From Paucibacter sp. TC2R-5 (GTDB lineage Bacteria > Pseudomonadota > Gammaproteobacteria > Burkholderiales > Burkholderiaceae_C), in NCBI RefSeq assembly GCF_025717605.1, contig NZ_JAJIRQ010000002.1:81884-145883 (forward strand): a stretch of 64,000 bases of DNA, written 5' to 3'. The stretch's first letter is position 1. Each line of letters starts with the position of its first letter. The notes beneath the pieces are model-generated. The model worked only from the letters and a program-made list of their open reading frames with translations. It had not been told where the DNA came from and did not search any database. Positions 54,815 to 64,000 of the stretch are shown one piece after another. Both the position numbers and the translations under genes were made by a program.

Positions 54815-57800
54815 TCAGGGCGCTAGGCAAGGGATGATGATGGTGAAGCTGGCACCTTCGCCGGCTACGCTGCTGGCGCTGATGCTGCCGCCCAAGACGC
54901 CGCTGACGATGTTGTAGCAGATGTGCAGACCCAGGCCACTGCCGCCCTGCCCCAGTTTGGTGGTGAAGAAGGGCTCGAAAATGCGCCCCAGATGTTCGGC
55001 GCTGATGCCGCAGCCGTTGTCCTTGAAGTAAATCGTTACCTGACCCTCTGCTTGCGTCTGCGCGGCCAGCGTCAGCAGCCCGTTGCGGCGCCCCTCAAAG
55101 CCATGCACCAGCGCATTGATGACCAGATTGCTCAAGACTTGGCCCAAGGGACCGGGGTAGCTGTCCATTTCGATGCCGCCGGGAACCTCCAGGCGCAGCT
55201 CATGCCCGCCTTGATGCAGGCGATTGGCCAGGGTCAAGGCCACTTCATCACACAAGGTGTGCAAGTCGAACCGACGCCTTTGCTCGGAGGTCTGATCTAC
55301 CGCCAACTGCTTGAAGCCATTAACCAGGCTCGCCGCCGCCCCCAGGCTGCGCACCAGCAGCCCGGCCGAATCGGCATTGCTCTGGCAGAACTGCTCCAGC
55401 TCCGAGCGACGCAGGCCTCCCGCCTGCATGCGCCGCAAAAACTCGCCACTGACATCCCGCATGGTGCTGGCCACCAGCAGGCTATTGCCCAGCGGCGTGT
55501 TCAATTCATGTGCCACGCCCGCCACCAGCGAACCCAGCGCAGCCAATTTTTCCTGCTCCACCAGCTTGGCCTGGGTCAGTTGCAATTGGCGGTACGCCTC
55601 CGCATTGTCAAGCGCCACCGCCGCATAAGCGCCCAGCGTGCGCAAGATATCCAGCTCCGCCGTGCCAAACGCATCCGGCCGATCGCTGAGCAGGCTGATG
55701 ATGCCAATCACCTCGCCCTTGAGCAACATCGGCACATAGATGCCGGAGCGCGCGGCCTGCGGCTCGCTGCCATCTTGCAGCTGCACCCGCCCAGCCCCGC
55801 CGTCAGTGCTGCTGAGCTCGCGGTTATCTTGGCTGAATGACTTGATGCACAGCTCCTTGGCCTCCAGCGCGCAACGCACGGCGGGTTGCTCGCGCGCGTC
55901 CAGGCTGCGGCGGTAGGGTTTGAACGCCTGACCGCGCTGCATCACGAAATCGAAGTTCAGCACCCGCTGGCGCCGGTCGAGCAAGCCAACACCAAACACC
56001 GAGGCATCGACCAGGTCCTGCACATGCTTGTACAGCGTTTGCTGGATCGCGGCGACGTCCAGCGAGGCGGTGATCTGCCGCCCGATCTCGCTCAGCAGCC
56101 CGATGTCGCGCCGCGCCTTCTCGGCCACCTCACGCTGACCCAAGGCCACTTGCTTTTCTTCGGCCAATTGCTGCGTGCGCGTCGCCACCTCTTGCTCCAG
56201 GACTTGCTTGGCTTGTTGCAAGGCCCGCGTGCGCAGCGTGTAGGCGCCAAGCAAGGCCAGTACCGCCAGCAGGGCCAGCCCCGCCCTCCACCACCAGGTG
56301 CGCCAGAACGGCGGCAAGACCGTCACCTCCAGCAGCGTGGCCGGCTCGCTCCAGACCCCATCGGGGTTGGCCGCTTTGACACGCAGCCGGTAGTGGCCGG
56401 CATCCAGATTCGTATAGGTTGCCAGCCCCAAGGCGCCTTGACCAAAGATCCAGTCACCGTCAAAACCCTCCAGCATCCAGGCATAACGATTCAAATTGAC
56501 GCGGTCGAAATGCAAGGCGGCAAGCTCGAAGCTGACCATGCTTTCGCGCGGACTCAAGGTCATGGACTTGGCCAAGTGCAGCGGCCCCGTGATGCCGAGA
56601 TCGGCCAGACTGAGGCCCGGCGAGCTGGCCGCCACAGGCATGGCGGCACCGGCCTTGTTCAGCAATGAGCGGTTGAGAATCAGCAAATCGCTCAACACGA
56701 CCTTGGGCGCGGCCGGGTTGTCCCGCAACTGCGCGGGCCAGAATCGCAACAAGCCGGGCCCGCCAAAAAAGAGGCTGCCGTCGGGGCCGCGCGTCGCCGC
56801 CGCAAAATTGAAGCCGCGGTCAAACAGGCCGCGTCCTCCGAAGAAGCGCGCCTCCCGCTGCGCCGGCCGCACCCGCGTCAAGCCTTGCTCGCTGCCCAGC
56901 CAGATTTCGCCATTCAAGGCATCTTGAATGGAATCAAAGCCGCCGGCCGGCATACCCGGCGTGTCGCGCCAAGACTTCAGCGCCCAGGTCTTGTCGGCGG
57001 CGGCGAGCAACTCGAACAGGCCTTGGTCGGTGGCCAGCCAAATGCGCCCCTGCTGGTCTTGGCGCATCCCGTGGATCGCCGGATTGACCTGGCCGGGGGA
57101 GGCGCCAAGCACCGGGACTGTCGCTGAAAAACCATCGGCGCGCTCGTCCCGCACTTGCAGGCCGCCCTTGCTGCCGATCCAGAGCCTACCCTCGCGGTCC
57201 CGCAGCAGACTGTCGATGATGGAGTGAACCAGCGCGCCCGGCCGCTTGGCTTCGGCGCGATAGGCTCGCACCGTCAAGTCGGGCTCTATCCTATACAGGC
57301 CCGAAGAACTGCTGGCCCAAACAGCGTCCCCATCGGGGAGCAGGGCGCTGATCGAGACGCTAGTGCCGCCACGCTCATCAAATGTGACGCGCTGGCTGCG
57401 CCCTAGGCTGGGGTTAAACAAGACCAGGCCGCGATCCCCGCCGACCCAAAGCCGACCCGCGGCCGCCTGCCCCAAGGCCTTGACATGGCTGATGGGCATA
57501 TCTTTGAGGGCGATTTGGCGGGCCTTGCCGCTGGGCAGGTGCAGGTGATTGAGCCCGCCGCCATAACTGCCTACCCACGCATGCTCGGTGCCGTCCAACA
57601 AGGTGGCCATCACGATCGGCGAAGACAGGGTTTGCGTATTGCCGGGAATGCTCAGGTAATTGCTGAAGCCCCGGCTGCTCAGGTCCACAAGGTTGACGCC
57701 GGTCTCGGTGGAGCCTACCCACAGGCCGCCCGAGCGGTCCTGCATCAAGGAGGCCATGCTGTCACTCGACAAGCTGCCGCTGACACCGGGCAGATGCCTG

Positions 57801-58762
57801 AAGGTCTCAAGCGCGGCCGCGCCGGCGCGCCAGCGGTGCAAGACGGCCAACTCGCCGATGCCTATCCACATCGCCTTGTCGCGGTCCAACAGCAGCGCGT
57901 GCACCATTTGCCGAGGCAATTGCAGCGACGCCCCGAGGGAGTCGGGGCGCACGCCGTCGGGATCGACCCGCCAGGTCTGCACGCCCCCAAGCATGCCGAG
58001 CCAGAGGCGACCCTCTGCATCCAACGCCATCCGGTTCACCGGCAGTTCAGCCGGATTCAAGCGCGCCGAACTCGTGCCCTGGGCGGTACTGAAGCTGCGG
58101 CCCTCGGTGTAGCCATCTGCCCCGGCGCCGATGTGGGAGACCTTATCGGCCAGGGCCACCCAGACACCGCCGGCGCCGTCGGAGATCATTGCCGTGATGC
58201 GGCCGGGCACTCCGGTTCGGCCCGCCGGCCAAGGCGAAAACAGTTCCCGGTCGGGGTCAAGCAGGTACAGGCCACCCCTGAACGCCACCCACAAGCGCCC
58301 CGCATCGGCCGGCGCCAAGGCCAGCACAAGCCGATCGCGGTGGCTCAACTCCACCGGCGGGCGCAGCCGCGCGACCCGCTCGGTCAGCAGGTCAAGCCTG
58401 TCCAAACCGCCATTGCTGCCAACCCAAAGCACGGACCGCTGACTATCCTCCAGCAGCACCTGCACCACCCCGTTGCTCAGCGTCGTTGCTTGCAGCGGGT
58501 CATGCACAAAGCTTCTGACATGGCGGCCGTCATAGCGTGCCAAGCCGCCGGTTGTGCCCAGCCAGATCAGACCATGCCGGTCCTGCAAGCTGCTCAGCAC
58601 ATAAGGGCTGGGCAGGCCGTCTTCCAGGCCCAGCTGGGTGAAGCGCAGGCTGTTCAGCGCCTGCGCGGCCGCAGGTGGCGCAAACAGGCACAAGAGCCAC
58701 GCAAGGCCAAGCGCCAGCACCCCGCCGAAACAACTTGCCCACAAGCGAAACCAAACCCGCAT
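54815..58762 (-). CDS. propeller-domain membrane sensor histidine kinase with GAF
   Basis: A 1315-residue one-polypeptide sensor. A signal segment (1-35) leads to about 650 residues of repeated W-x-G/GGL units (for example GLIWLGTTGGLARYD), forming two seven-bladed propellers of the two-component-regulator type. Then come a Y_Y_Y domain (about 750-812), a single membrane helix (about 820-842), a coiled-coil, GAF (about 885-1045), HisKA with His1085 (GVAHELNTPLGN) and HATPase ending in GSGLGLHI. Unlike Bacteroidetes relatives there is no fused regulator. I start at MRVWFRLW (58762). It is divergent from the giant gene at 59012. Confidence 0.9.
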   Translation of the reverse strand: MRVWFRLWASCFGGVLALGLAWLLCLFAPPAAAQALNSLRFTQLGLEDGLPSPYVLSSLQDRHGLIWLGTTGGLARYDGRHVRSFVHDPLQATTLSNGVVQVLLEDSQRSVLWVGSNGGLDRLDLLTERVARLRPPVELSHRDRLVLALAPADAGRLWVAFRGGLYLLDPDRELFSPWPAGRTGVPGRITAMISDGAGGVWVALADKVSHIGAGADGYTEGRSFSTAQGTSSARLNPAELPVNRMALDAEGRLWLGMLGGVQTWRVDPDGVRPDSLGASLQLPRQMVHALLLDRDKAMWIGIGELAVLHRWRAGAAALETFRHLPGVSGSLSSDSMASLMQDRSGGLWVGSTETGVNLVDLSSRGFSNYLSIPGNTQTLSSPIVMATLLDGTEHAWVGSYGGGLNHLHLPSGKARQIALKDMPISHVKALGQAAAGRLWVGGDRGLVLFNPSLGRSQRVTFDERGGTSVSISALLPDGDAVWASSSSGLYRIEPDLTVRAYRAEAKRPGALVHSIIDSLLRDREGRLWIGSKGGLQVRDERADGFSATVPVLGASPGQVNPAIHGMRQDQQGRIWLATDQGLFELLAAADKTWALKSWRDTPGMPAGGFDSIQDALNGEIWLGSEQGLTRVRPAQREARFFGGRGLFDRGFNFAAATRGPDGSLFFGGPGLLRFWPAQLRDNPAAPKVVLSDLLILNRSLLNKAGAAMPVAASSPGLSLADLGITGPLHLAKSMTLSPRESMVSFELAALHFDRVNLNRYAWMLEGFDGDWIFGQGALGLATYTNLDAGHYRLRVKAANPDGVWSEPATLLEVTVLPPFWRTWWWRAGLALLAVLALLGAYTLRTRALQQAKQVLEQEVATRTQQLAEEKQVALGQREVAEKARRDIGLLSEIGRQITASLDVAAIQQTLYKHVQDLVDASVFGVGLLDRRQRVLNFDFVMQRGQAFKPYRRSLDAREQPAVRCALEAKELCIKSFSQDNRELSSTDGGAGRVQLQDGSEPQAARSGIYVPMLLKGEVIGIISLLSDRPDAFGTAELDILRTLGAYAAVALDNAEAYRQLQLTQAKLVEQEKLAALGSLVAGVAHELNTPLGNSLLVASTMRDVSGEFLRRMQAGGLRRSELEQFCQSNADSAGLLVRSLGAAASLVNGFKQLAVDQTSEQRRRFDLHTLCDEVALTLANRLHQGGHELRLEVPGGIEMDSYPGPLGQVLSNLVINALVHGFEGRRNGLLTLAAQTQAEGQVTIYFKDNGCGISAEHLGRIFEPFFTTKLGQGGSGLGLHICYNIVSGVLGGSISASSVAGEGASFTIIIPCLAP

Positions 58763-59011
58763 CTGCCGCGCCCCTGTTCCCGCCAAAGCTTGCGAGCTTG
58801 GCAAGCCGGAAGTATGCACGCTGAGCGTGTGTATGACGGCAATAAGAATGCGTGACAAAACAGCTCAAGTCGCAGGCTTTCGCAGGCGCAAAGGAAAGAG
58901 CCGCTCAAAGGCGGTGATACTTGCCCCCCAGCGTCCGAAGACAGGTCAATTTCCCATTCCTGAAACGTTTTCAAGCCCACGCGCCGGCCGCCATAGCAAT
59001 AAAGAAGATTC
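58763..59011. promoter_or_regulatory. divergent promoter region between the two large sensors
   Basis: These 249 bases hold both promoters. Between 58875 and 58914 two hairpins can form: GGCTTTC with GAAAGAGCC, and CCGC with GGCGG; they share bases at 58901-58902 so only one can form fully at a time. The stretch GGCGCAAAG inside recalls part of a c-di-GMP riboswitch but the rest of the consensus is missing. I see no other known motif. Confidence 0.35.
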
Positions 59012-62000
59012 ATGATCAAGCTGGAAGGCTATCTGCTCGCAGAGCCACTGTTCGAGAACACGCCGATTTCCATCCTCAAGGGCATGCGCCAAGCCGACGG
59101 GGCGCCCGTGATCGTCAAGATCCTGGCCATCGAGTTCCCCTCGCCGCTGCAGCTGGCGCGCATCCGGCATGAGTACGAACTCGTCAGCAGCCTGAACCAC
59201 CCCGGCATCATCAAGGCGCATGGGATTGAAAAATTCCAGCATTCGCTGGCCATCGTGATGGAAGATTTCGGTGGCCAGCCTTTGCGAGCCCTGGCGGCCA
59301 CGGCTGCCTTCTCCCTTCAAGACAAGCTGCTCATAGGCCGACGCATTGGCGCCATCCTCGGCGAGGTCCATCGCCAGGGCATCGTCCACAAAGACGTCAA
59401 TCCCAACAACATCCTCATCAACCCGCAGACGGGCGAGATCAAGCTGATCGACTTTGGCAACGCCACCCGCATGGCTCATGACAATGGCCAAACGAACAGC
59501 CCCGAGCATCTGGAGGGCACGCTGGCCTATATCGCGCCGGAGCAGACCGGCCGCATGAACCGGCCGGTGGACTACCGCAGCGACTACTACTCGCTGGGCA
59601 TCACGCTGTATGAGCTGCTGCTGGGTCGGCGGCCCTTCGAAGCCCAGGACGGCATGGAGCTGGTGCATCAGCACATCGCCGTCATGCCGCCCCAGTTGCA
59701 CCTGCAAGACGCCACCATCCCGGTCGCGCTAGCACGGGTGATAGACAAGCTGATGGCCAAGAATGCGGAGCAGCGCTATCAAAGCAGCGCCGGCCTCTGC
59801 GGCGACCTGGACGAATGCATCGCAGCGCTCGCCGCCGGCAGCCCGCTCGAAGGCTTCGAGCCCGGCCGCCACGAACTGCCCGAGCGCTTCAGCTTGGCCG
59901 GCCGGCTTTACGGCCGGGACGCCCAGGTCCAAAGCCTGCTGGATGCCTACGCGCGCGCCTGCGCCGGCTCGCCCGGCTTCGTGCTGGTAAGGGGTTACTC
60001 CGGCATCGGCAAATCCTCGCTGATCAACGAGATCCACAAACCGATTGCGCATAGCAGCGGCTATTTTGTCTCCGGCAAGTTCGACCAATTTCGACGCAAC
60101 ATCCCCTATGCGGCGCTGATACAGGCCTTCCAGAGCCTGCTGCACCAGATCCTGACGGAGAGCGATGCACGCATCGCGCATTGGCGCAAGCGTCTGCTCG
60201 CCGCCATGGACGGCAATGCGCGCGTCGTGATGGACGTCATTCCGGAGCTGGCGCACATCCTCGGCCCCCAGGCCGAAGTGCCTCCGCTCGCACCGCATGA
60301 AGCGCAAAACCGCTTCAACTTCTACTTGCTCAGTTTCGTGCGCGCCTTCGCGCAGGCCGAGCATCCGCTGGCGCTGTTCCTGGACGACCTGCAATGGGCC
60401 GACCAGGCCTCGCTGAACCTGCTTGAATTGCTGGGCGCCGACGAGGGCTGCCGGCACCTGCTGATCATCGGCGCCTATCGGCAGACGGACCTGGACGGCG
60501 CGCACCCATTGCATTTGGCGCTGGCACGAATCAGAAGCGCGGGCTTGGCGCTGCAGGAGATCGCGCTCGAGCAGCTGCCGCCCGAGGTCGTCCAGGAACT
60601 GGTTGCCGACACCATGTGCTGCACGTTCGAGCGGGCGCAGCCGCTGGCCGCCTTGGTCTCTCGCAAAACCGGCGGCAACCCCTTCTTCATCAACCAGCTG
60701 CTGAAGAATCTGCACGACAACGGCCTGCTGAGCTTTGATTCCGCCGCCCGCTGCTGGAGCTGGAATATCGCTCAGATCGACCGCGTCGGCATCACCGACA
60801 ACGTCGTCGAGCTGATGTCGGGCATGATCCGCAAGCTGCCCGCCGCCACGCAGCGCCTGCTGCAGATGGCCGCCTGCATAGGCAACCAGTTCACGCTGCA
60901 AGAACTGGCCGTGGTCAGCGAGGCCACACCCGCCGCCTTGGCTGAAGCCTTTCGCGCGGCCCAGCAGGCCGAGCTGGTCATCCCCATCGGTGACGAATAC
61001 AAGCTGCTGGATAGTGGCGTTAGCGCTTCCAGCGACAACAGCGGCATCACTGGCATTGGCGCCCAGACCATGCCCGATTGCCTCGTACGCTTTCGCTTCT
61101 TGCATGACCGCGTGCAGCAGGCCGCCTATGACCTGCTGAGCGAGGCCGAGAAAATGCAGGCCCACCACAGGGCAGGCACCCTGCTGCTGCAAAGCACCCC
61201 GCAAGACCAAGTCGACGACAGGTTGTTCGACATCGTCAACCACCTCAACCAAGGCCTGCCCCTGGTCAGCGATGGCGCGCTGCGCCTGCAACTCGCCGAA
61301 CTCAATCTCAGGGCCGCCGGCAAGGCCAAGCAAGCGATCGCCTACCAGCCCGCGCTGCAGTACCTGGCGGTAGCCCAGTCCCTGCACACAGGCTTGCCGC
61401 AGCGCAGCCCGCAGCTGCGCTGGCGCATCCTGTTCGAGCGCGCCGAGTGTGAACACCTGAGCGGGCAAAACGAAGCCGCGCTGCACGCCTATCGCCAAGC
61501 GCTGGAAGATGCACCGGACGAGGCGGCCCTCTCCTCGGTCTACGAGGCCCTGATTCATTTCCACACCAACACCGGCAATTTCCAGCTGGCCTACCAGACC
61601 GGGCGGGAGGCGCTCAAGCGCTTCGGCGTGTCCTTGCCTGCGGGCTTCGCCCCGCCGCTGTTCGCGCTGGACCTGGCCGAGCTGAAATGGCGCATGCGCG
61701 GCAAACAAGTCGCCGAGCTGATCGATCTGCCCCTATGCCGGGACGAACAAATGTGCAGCGCGATGCGCCTGATCGGCGCGCTGCTCAAGGCCGCCTATCA
61801 GATCCGACCCGAGCTGTGCGTCGCCAATGCCGTCAAGGCGGTCAATCTCAGCCTCAAGCACGGCACGATGGAAGACAACGCCGTCGCCTACCTCGTGTTC
61901 GGCGGCATCTTCCTCGGAGGCGTGCTCGGACGCCATCAGGCCGGCTATGAATTCGGCCAGCTCGCCCTGGCGATGAACGCGCGCTTTGACCAAGCAAAGC

Positions 62001-64000
62001 AGCGCAGCGAGATCAATTTCGTGGCCGGCTACTTCACCCATTTCTGGCTAAAACCTGCCCGCGACACCGAGGCCTATTACCGCACCGCCTTTGACAGCGG
62101 CCTGCAGACCGGCGACTTCTTTCACCTGTCCTGCGCGGCCTGCACGCTGCTGGAGAGCCAGTACATCCGCGGCGTCGCGCTGCCCGAACTGCACAAGCTC
62201 GGGCGCGACTATCTGGCCTTGATGGAGCGGATCGGCAGCCATGAGCCGGCCGACGCGATCAGGTCTGTCTTGCGCGCTGTCCAGAATCTCGAAGGCATGA
62301 CCGAGGGGCCGGCCTCGTTTGGCGACCATCACTTCAGCGAGGCCGAGTTGGTCGGCCGGCTGGAGAAGTTCTCCTCCAAGCACTTCGCGCATTTCTATTT
62401 CGTCAACAAGATGCAGACGCTGTATCTGTGGCGCCGGCCCGCCGAGGCGCTGGAGATGGCACGTCAATCGGCGCGCTATCTCAAGCATTCGCTCGCCATG
62501 TTGCACACGGTCGAGCACCATTTCTACCATGCACTGATCCTCTGCGCGGCCTTTGAGGCCAAGCCGGACGCGGCGCACCTGCGCCGGGCGCGCAAGATCC
62601 TGGCCAAGTTTGAACAATGGGCGCGGCTCAACCCCGCCAACTTCGAGCACAAGGCGCTGTTGATCCGGGCCGAGATCCAGCGCCTGAGCAAACCCGGCTA
62701 TGAGGTTGCCGATCTGTACGCACGCGCGATCCGCTCGGCCGACGAACATGGCTACCTGCAAAACAAGGCGCTGGGCAACGAATTAGCCGGTCGCTTCTTC
62801 GCATCAACCAGCCTGGTGATGTCGGCCCGCGGCCACTTGCAAGAAGCCTATTACGGCTATCAGCTCTGGGGTGCCAGCGGCATCGCCGACAGGCTGCTGA
62901 ACGACTTCCCGCAATTCCTCGGTCGACGCTCAACGCACGGCCTCTCGGAATTGCCCTTGCCGAGCGACGAGGACCTGCCCTACTCCGGCGCCCTGCAGAG
63001 CAAGGGGCAGCTGCGCTCGAATGCCAGCTTGTCGAGCGCCGGCTCGCGCCGCAAGGCCAGCCTGGACATCGAAACCATCATCAAAGCCACGCAGGCCATC
63101 TCGGGGGAAATCCGGCTGTCGACTCTGTTGCAAAAGCTGATGCTCATCATGCTGGAGAACGCCGGCGCCGAAAAAGGCTGCTTCATCCGGGTCGAACGGG
63201 GTGAGCTGACGGTCGAAGCGACGGGCTCGGTGAGCGCCGGGGTGAGCATACTCGGCGGCACGCCGCTGAACGGCGCCGACTTGCCGGTCTCGCTGGTCCA
63301 ATATGTCGCCCGCCTGGGCGTGTCCGTCGTGCTCCATGATGCGCAAGCCGACGCGCGCTTCTGGGACGATGCTTATGTGGTGCAGGCCCGGCCGCAATCG
63401 CTGCTTTGCGTGCCCGTCATCCACCAGGGTGAGTTGATTGGCGTCATCTGCCTGGAGAACAGCCAGACCAGCGGCGCCTTCACCGCCGGGCGGGTCGAAC
63501 TGCTGGGCATCTTGGCCGCACAGGCCGGCATCTCTATCGAGAACTCGCTGCTCTATGCGAACCTGGAGCAGCGCGTACAAGAGCGCACCCAAGAGCTGTC
63601 ACTGGCGACCGAGAAACTCAAGGCCGCCAATGAGGCCTTGGAAAAGCTCACCCTGATAGACACGCTCACGCAAGTCTCCAACAAGCGCCATTTCCAGCAG
63701 GTTTTTGAGGAGGAATGGAAGCGCGCCTTGCGCAACGCCAGCACGCTCACGCTGATGGTGATCGACATCGACTGCTTCAAGCCCTACAACGACAGCTACG
63801 GCCACCTTGAAGGCGACCGCTGCTTGAAGGCGGTGGCGAGCGCGCTCGCAAGCGTCGTCAACCGCGCCAGCGATCTCTTGGCGCGCTTCGGCGGGGAGGA
63901 ATTCGTCATCCTGCTGGCCGACGCCAGCCCCGAGGAAGCCCAGCTGATTGCGGCGCGCCTGCTCGAGGCCGTGCGCCAGCTGCAAATACCGCACAAGAGC
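59012..64000 (+). CDS. giant Ser/Thr kinase-AAA ATPase-GAF-GGDEF protein (partial, truncated by window end)
   Basis: At least 1663 residues, still open at the right edge. Residues 1-270 form a eukaryotic-type protein kinase: Lys36 (VIVKILA), the catalytic loop HKDVNPNN (126-133), Asp147 (IDFGN) and IAPEQTG. Residues about 300-560 carry an ATPase with Walker A GYSGIGKSS (328-336) and Walker B LFLDDLQWAD (near 457). A long helical, TPR-like region (about 800-1280) follows. A GAF domain (about 1350-1510) and a coiled-coil lead to a GGDEF domain with LTLIDTLTQVSNKRHF, GGEEF at 1627-1631 and an RASD inhibitory site. Related giant kinases usually end in histidine kinase; here the output is c-di-GMP synthesis. 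Confidence 0.93.
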   Translation, partial: MIKLEGYLLAEPLFENTPISILKGMRQADGAPVIVKILAIEFPSPLQLARIRHEYELVSSLNHPGIIKAHGIEKFQHSLAIVMEDFGGQPLRALAATAAFSLQDKLLIGRRIGAILGEVHRQGIVHKDVNPNNILINPQTGEIKLIDFGNATRMAHDNGQTNSPEHLEGTLAYIAPEQTGRMNRPVDYRSDYYSLGITLYELLLGRRPFEAQDGMELVHQHIAVMPPQLHLQDATIPVALARVIDKLMAKNAEQRYQSSAGLCGDLDECIAALAAGSPLEGFEPGRHELPERFSLAGRLYGRDAQVQSLLDAYARACAGSPGFVLVRGYSGIGKSSLINEIHKPIAHSSGYFVSGKFDQFRRNIPYAALIQAFQSLLHQILTESDARIAHWRKRLLAAMDGNARVVMDVIPELAHILGPQAEVPPLAPHEAQNRFNFYLLSFVRAFAQAEHPLALFLDDLQWADQASLNLLELLGADEGCRHLLIIGAYRQTDLDGAHPLHLALARIRSAGLALQEIALEQLPPEVVQELVADTMCCTFERAQPLAALVSRKTGGNPFFINQLLKNLHDNGLLSFDSAARCWSWNIAQIDRVGITDNVVELMSGMIRKLPAATQRLLQMAACIGNQFTLQELAVVSEATPAALAEAFRAAQQAELVIPIGDEYKLLDSGVSASSDNSGITGIGAQTMPDCLVRFRFLHDRVQQAAYDLLSEAEKMQAHHRAGTLLLQSTPQDQVDDRLFDIVNHLNQGLPLVSDGALRLQLAELNLRAAGKAKQAIAYQPALQYLAVAQSLHTGLPQRSPQLRWRILFERAECEHLSGQNEAALHAYRQALEDAPDEAALSSVYEALIHFHTNTGNFQLAYQTGREALKRFGVSLPAGFAPPLFALDLAELKWRMRGKQVAELIDLPLCRDEQMCSAMRLIGALLKAAYQIRPELCVANAVKAVNLSLKHGTMEDNAVAYLVFGGIFLGGVLGRHQAGYEFGQLALAMNARFDQAKQRSEINFVAGYFTHFWLKPARDTEAYYRTAFDSGLQTGDFFHLSCAACTLLESQYIRGVALPELHKLGRDYLALMERIGSHEPADAIRSVLRAVQNLEGMTEGPASFGDHHFSEAELVGRLEKFSSKHFAHFYFVNKMQTLYLWRRPAEALEMARQSARYLKHSLAMLHTVEHHFYHALILCAAFEAKPDAAHLRRARKILAKFEQWARLNPANFEHKALLIRAEIQRLSKPGYEVADLYARAIRSADEHGYLQNKALGNELAGRFFASTSLVMSARGHLQEAYYGYQLWGASGIADRLLNDFPQFLGRRSTHGLSELPLPSDEDLPYSGALQSKGQLRSNASLSSAGSRRKASLDIETIIKATQAISGEIRLSTLLQKLMLIMLENAGAEKGCFIRVERGELTVEATGSVSAGVSILGGTPLNGADLPVSLVQYVARLGVSVVLHDAQADARFWDDAYVVQARPQSLLCVPVIHQGELIGVICLENSQTSGAFTAGRVELLGILAAQAGISIENSLLYANLEQRVQERTQELSLATEKLKAANEALEKLTLIDTLTQVSNKRHFQQVFEEEWKRALRNASTLTLMVIDIDCFKPYNDSYGHLEGDRCLKAVASALASVVNRASDLLARFGGEEFVILLADASPEEAQLIAARLLEAVRQLQIPHKS

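Follow-up and report, generated by a model that had tools for sequence, protein, structure and literature searches.

A complete 1711-residue kinase, STAND-type ATPase and GGDEF protein of Paucibacter sp. TC2R-5 from a widespread, modular family with an often-swapped output domain

The stretch of DNA analyzed here (64,000 nucleotides, hereafter the window) lies inside contig C12 of the 5.13-Mb, 45-contig genome of Paucibacter sp. TC2R-5 (G000). The open reading frame listing gives a + strand frame of 1663 codons that runs from an ATG at 59012 to the window edge at 64000; in the host contig it continues for 48 codons and ends cleanly at a stop (L009:8031), giving a gene of 1711 codons plus stop (59012..64000 and 147 bases past the window; G000:C12:140895-146030, +) and a complete giant protein of 1711 aa. 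From N- to C-terminus, the protein consists of a kinase domain, a STAND-type ATPase, TPR-like helices, a GAF domain, a coiled-coil linker and a GGDEF domain, which is the last one, as neither a histidine kinase nor an EAL domain was found in the host contig past 64000 through the stop of the gene. A chance open reading frame is ruled out by a full-length relative in a Sideroxydans MAG. The complete giant signaling chain is thereby confirmed: the single open frame of at least 1663 codons described by an earlier reading of the letters (the sequence-only reading) was borne out, with no frameshift or early stop beyond the window.

Pfam searches were run on the in-window 1663 aa, while the whole GGDEF domain was scored separately; all features of the protein lie on the + strand. 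The N-terminal Pkinase domain (residues 21-257, 59072..59782; E 1.5e-36, 126.6 bits against a cut-off of 31.7) is followed by an AAA_16 domain, a STAND-type NTPase (residues 298-486, 59903..60469; E 1.6e-43), a GGNPFF motif (residues 554-559, 60671..60688) and a long helical-repeat region (about residues 700-1340, 61109..63031), which consists mostly of helices in the AlphaFold2 model and contains a TPR_CHK1 match that is barely above its cut-off (residues 1118-1251; E 2.8e-6). The C-terminal part comprises the GAF domain (residues 1369-1509, 63116..63538; E 1.5e-15), the linker LEQRVQERTQEL (residues 1518-1529, 63563..63598) with the ERT signature of the signaling helix, and the GGDEF domain, which starts at residue 1548 (63653..64000, rest outside the window; E 6.7e-36 on the in-window part) and reaches 171 bits when complete (G000:C12:145536-146018). 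The STAND-like ATPase with Walker A and B, the helical repeats, the GAF domain and the GGDEF domain with GGEEF and RxxD, all of which had been proposed from the letters, were recovered by Pfam and motif scans. Among solved sequences the nearest are WspR-type GGDEF proteins along with the kinases PknA and PknB, and among the best 25 of 42 matched curated NCBI families only the GGDEF domain model TIGR00254 exceeded its cut-off, with none covering the whole protein.

To the left, and divergent from the giant gene, lies a large propeller-type (Reg_prop, Y_Y_Y) GAF histidine kinase (54815-58858, - strand), which has relatives (E 1e-80) in 12 of the 17 same-genus genomes; its TTG start in the open reading frame list probably lies too far upstream, because the majority of long matches start around residue 40-55. 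Beyond the window edge, three consecutive chitinase genes share the strand of the giant gene (GH19; GH18 with ChiC; GH18 with fn3; L009:8781-15554), the first of them 749 bases downstream. A link to chitin was rejected, as the neighborhood of the Sideroxydans copy differs and has no chitinase among the nine neighbors scanned. Beside the last chitinase, a short 226-aa frame (L009:15535-16215, - strand) matches GGDEF weakly (37.5 bits). The host genome as a whole has 66 GGDEF places and is therefore rich in c-di-GMP signaling.

In two genomes of the same genus (G004 and G001) the flanking genes are collinear and the giant gene is absent between them. Flank identity breaks off at 58686/58687 and is restored from 64416 (G004) or 64641 (G001) onward, leaving a slot of ~2.9 kb or ~0.7 kb, respectively, against ~6 kb with the giant gene; the slot of G004 (L195:10299-13167, ~2.9 kb) holds other DNA, including a 584-aa frame that matches nothing in Pfam. 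The slot between the propeller kinase and the chitinases may be a variable site. No long match above 39% identity was present in the 17 same-genus genomes (best eight candidates per genome scored), and the absence at the same site suggests either a recent gain or repeated loss. Base composition does not separate these two and gives no foreign mark (GC3 of 0.839 in the giant gene vs. 0.802-0.857 in four neighbors), no tRNA was found at the site, and terminators gave no signal (7 found vs. 6.1 expected). The one 12-base repeat that flanks the gene (58882 and 64567, extended coordinates) was rejected as a target-site duplication because it does not match an insertion boundary, homology to G004 being already back at 64416.

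Relatives were searched with the ATPase-plus-repeat part (residues 285-1340; E 1e-20 or better) and were found in 21 of 399 genomes of the order sample and in 42 of 398 genomes of the phylum sample, two overlapping samples that both include the window's own genome. A search of the plasmid collection with the whole protein gave 257 matching records at E 1e-30, and coverage reached at least 80% in 153. The giant protein has an N-terminal kinase, AAA_16, helical repeats and GAF in that order, and shares this order with its relatives. Outputs were classified by comparison with Pfam-identified segments of fetched genes for 19 of 23 genes from the order and 41 of 48 from the phylum, the rest being truncated, in two frames or matched in the ATPase part only. 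HisKA (10), GGDEF (6), GGDEF-EAL (2) and a class III cyclase (1) were found in the order sample; the phylum sample contained HisKA (18), HisKA_3 (13), GGDEF (5) and cyclase (5) outputs. GGDEF with or without EAL is hence the output in 8/19 order-sample genes (window gene included) and 5/41 phylum-sample genes. One relative (L142), from the single-contig genome G743, is split into two frames (1000 and 710 aa), possibly by a frameshift.

A tree was built on the kinase-to-repeat regions, output domain excluded, from 59 rows: 66 sequences less eight (L012, L013, L017, L082, L120, both L142 pieces and L157), plus the query, with L158 kept without an output label; the tree is flagged for a number of long branches and for uneven composition. 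It requires at least 14 changes of the output label, and none of 500 shuffles was equally low, so outputs cluster yet have been repeatedly swapped. The GGDEF label needs 6 changes, of which at least 4 are forced by well-supported (starred) branches. Together with the Sideroxydans and Zetaproteobacteria copies, the window protein forms one group (support 100), which three cyclase-ended proteins adjoin (support 95). Forcing the 12 GGDEF/GGDEF-EAL rows together in a 26-row subset, which omits L111, L117, L132, L143 and many histidine-kinase rows, lowered the lnL by 620 (p-AU 1.7e-36, LG+G4), and under this model a single origin of GGDEF outputs is rejected for the subset. Given these counts, the number of output changes and a precedent from 2005 (see below), the 'unusual signaling design' of the sequence-only reading could not be upheld. 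The reading had also considered that the domain order might already be common and characterized elsewhere: it is in part common, while no characterized example was found, and searches of the open-access literature yielded no functional study of a kinase-GGDEF fusion or of the activity of a GGDEF-ended member. The giant protein belongs to a known, modular and little-tested family that is widespread and frequently exchanges its output domain.

The ATPase carries a Walker A motif (GYSGIGKSS, residues 328-336) and a Walker B motif of the hhhhDD type inside LFLDDLQWAD (455-464). GGNPFF corresponds to the GxP-like motif of STAND ATPases, and with the superstructure repeats behind it the full STAND arrangement is present. 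The Walker A G/G/G/K and Walker B DD residues are invariant in 59/59 aligned sequences. An AlphaFold2 model of residues 285-1345, made with four sequences, was of moderate quality (pLDDT 75.7, pTM 0.44) and shows a P-loop domain followed by a long series of helices; its top Foldseek match was 6mfv, a solved STAND protein with TPR (E 2.7e-9), with low superposition scores (TMq 0.26, TMt 0.36), followed by ORC/Cdc6 ATPases, TPR proteins and MalT (8bob). The predicted structure and its matches support the STAND class, not the details.

In the GGDEF domain, a RASD I-site (residues 1618-1621, 63863-63874) stands five residues ahead of GGEEF (1627-1631, 63890-63904), the GG[DE]EF and RxxD arrangement expected of an active, product-inhibited diguanylate cyclase. 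All 13 GGDEF-bearing relatives listed have GG[DE]EF and 12 of them RxxD (L132 lacks it). The ERT signature is described for the coiled coil through which histidine kinases, cyclases and GGDEF domains are joined to their sensor domains (PMC1592074). The strict pattern occurs in just 5 of the 57 relatives scanned (three GGDEF, one cyclase and one HisKA), and the linker is therefore no constant of the family.

The kinase domain, a Pkinase member by homology, contains VIVK with Lys36, HKDVNPNN (126-133), IDFG (146-149) and APEQ, with Lys36, Asp128, Asn133 and Asp147 (DFG) all present. However, the subdomain I region (LAEPLFENTPISILKG) is without GxGxxG, and Asn130 stands where HRDxKxxN has the Lys of the catalytic loop, so that the domain departs from a canonical eukaryotic-type Ser/Thr kinase at these two places. 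The motifs had been called intact from the letters, which holds for Lys36, the HKD loop and IDFG and was too generous for the glycine loop and the catalytic-loop Lys. Both departures are family traits, usual among relatives: GxGxxG is found in 0/59 aligned sequences, and position 130 is Asn in 23 and Lys in 11. A cyanobacterial survey likewise reports the exact GXGXXG in just 53.3% of its kinases, and its kinase/histidine-kinase fusions are all 'KD' kinases (PMC2176072). All four key residues are kept in 34/59 sequences and at least one is missing in 25/59, one of which (L156) has no aligned kinase domain at all; with the Walker residues invariant, members of the family can thus lose the kinase, whereas the ATPase is not lost. 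By output, the four residues are kept in 12/12 GGDEF, 12/13 HisKA_3, 8/25 HisKA and 2/5 cyclase sequences, and in none of the two GGDEF-EAL rows or the single unlabelled one.

We consider the giant protein to be, with fair probability, a soluble one-protein sensor of the HstK/CHK1-like kind, in which ATPase switching controls GGDEF pairing and the output is that of a diguanylate cyclase. The N-terminal kinase domain, be it regulator or enzyme, would act with the TPR-like helices to hold or release the STAND ATPase, which would self-associate upon ATP binding; the GAF domain and the coiled-coil linker would then align the C-termini, so that two GGDEF domains could meet and make c-di-GMP, with feedback via the RxxD site. 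HisKA, HisKA_3, class III cyclase and GGDEF domains all work as dimers, in keeping with a single assembly switch that serves several outputs. In favor of this account are the Pfam domains of a complete gene with GGDEF at its end, Walker residues that are invariant where those of the kinase are not, the exchange of outputs among relatives, the GG[DE]EF and RxxD motifs of the GGDEF-bearing members, the Foldseek match to a STAND protein and the ERT linker. The moderate model, the low TM-scores, the inconstant ERT linker and the kinase residues kept in GGDEF-only members tell against an ATPase switch, which we still regard as rather likely.

The role of the kinase domain leaves room for two other accounts, both of which we hold to be possible and neither probable. 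An active Ser/Thr kinase could provide a second catalytic output by phosphorylating itself or partners, or could regulate the GGDEF domain directly. The four residues and APEQ are in place, two active kinases, PknA and PknB, are among the best solved relatives (E about 1e-30), and identity of the domain to the Sideroxydans copy is 64%, not lower than that of the other domains; the conservation in all 12 GGDEF-only members also hints that kinase action may matter in the giant protein. This last correlation, strong by raw count, failed a tree-based independent-pairs test (4 pairs, median p 0.5, not significant; 5 pairs, p 1 with GGDEF-EAL counted), and the missing glycine loop, the Asn at the catalytic-loop Lys and the relatives without key residues also speak against activity. 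The same degenerate subdomain I and missing Lys, together with the many relatives that clearly lost catalytic residues while the ATPase stayed unbroken, would suit a kinase domain turned into a non-phosphorylating regulatory module that binds a nucleotide or a protein, an equally tentative explanation to which the retention of all four catalytic residues is opposed. Moreover, Asn occupies position 130 in 21 of the 34 sequences that keep these residues and Lys does so in one, so Asn may be a working variant.

That the gene is decaying or inactive and carried by chance is highly improbable: its absence at this locus in two genomes of the genus would agree with this, but the frame is open over 1711 codons, the ATPase and GGDEF motifs are all kept, and identity to the Sideroxydans copy is an even 60-70% in all domains. 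A bolder extension of the assembly switch, which we regard as unlikely though conceivable, is that the non-canonical kinase of the GGDEF-ended branch (no glycine loop, HKD[IV]NPxN) is active within its own chain and would form one self-contained circuit with ATPase switching and c-di-GMP synthesis, with the front end as a portable controller repeatedly plugged into dimer-requiring outputs. The family constitutes a natural experiment, with one front end (kinase, STAND, TPR, GAF) and four kinds of output, and a GGDEF-ended member could reveal whether ATPase-driven assembly switches c-di-GMP synthesis and what role the odd kinase plays.

The closest copy, in the Sideroxydans sp. LH_M3 MAG (L010), is full-length with the same domain order and 62% identity overall; as each of the five domains lies in the range given above, the whole chain has been kept. 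The Zetaproteobacteria MAG CG_4_9_14_3_um_filter_54_145 also holds a full-length relative with the same order, on two contigs (L011 and L012; best segments 53% and 57% identical). Sideroxydans and the Zetaproteobacteria, the source groups of L010, L011 and L012, are iron oxidizers. Among solved STAND ATPases, 6mfv and MalT likewise have a P-loop ATPase followed by TPR-like helices, but they have no kinase and no GGDEF, and their overall superposition on the giant-protein model is weak. The giant protein is matched over ~90% of its length by named plasmid records, among them those of Nostoc and Leptolyngbya. As described in the cyanobacterial survey, the dual kinases HstK/cbSTKIII share with it the N-terminal KD-type kinase, the GAF domain and the single soluble chain, whereas their output is HisKA and not GGDEF, and one member of the cbSTKIII clade, Tery_2857, has GAF and a nucleotide cyclase (PMC2176072). 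The giant protein has no C-terminal histidine kinase and its gene ends after GGDEF, which makes it a GGDEF-ended HstK relative and not a dual kinase. A precedent for the output is the 1826-aa Clostridium thermocellum protein of Krupa and Srinivasan (2005), likewise a giant kinase with helical repeats (six TPRs) and a C-terminal GGDEF domain, for which a role in cyclic diguanylate production was inferred; compared by the survey's description alone, it differs in that this account mentions neither ATPase nor GAF, nor uses the word AAA (PMC1262709). Finally, the SiaABCD system of Pseudomonas aeruginosa, as described, also ties threonine phosphorylation to a diguanylate cyclase, but does so through separate proteins with a partner switch and no fusion, unlike the giant single chain (PMC7647112).
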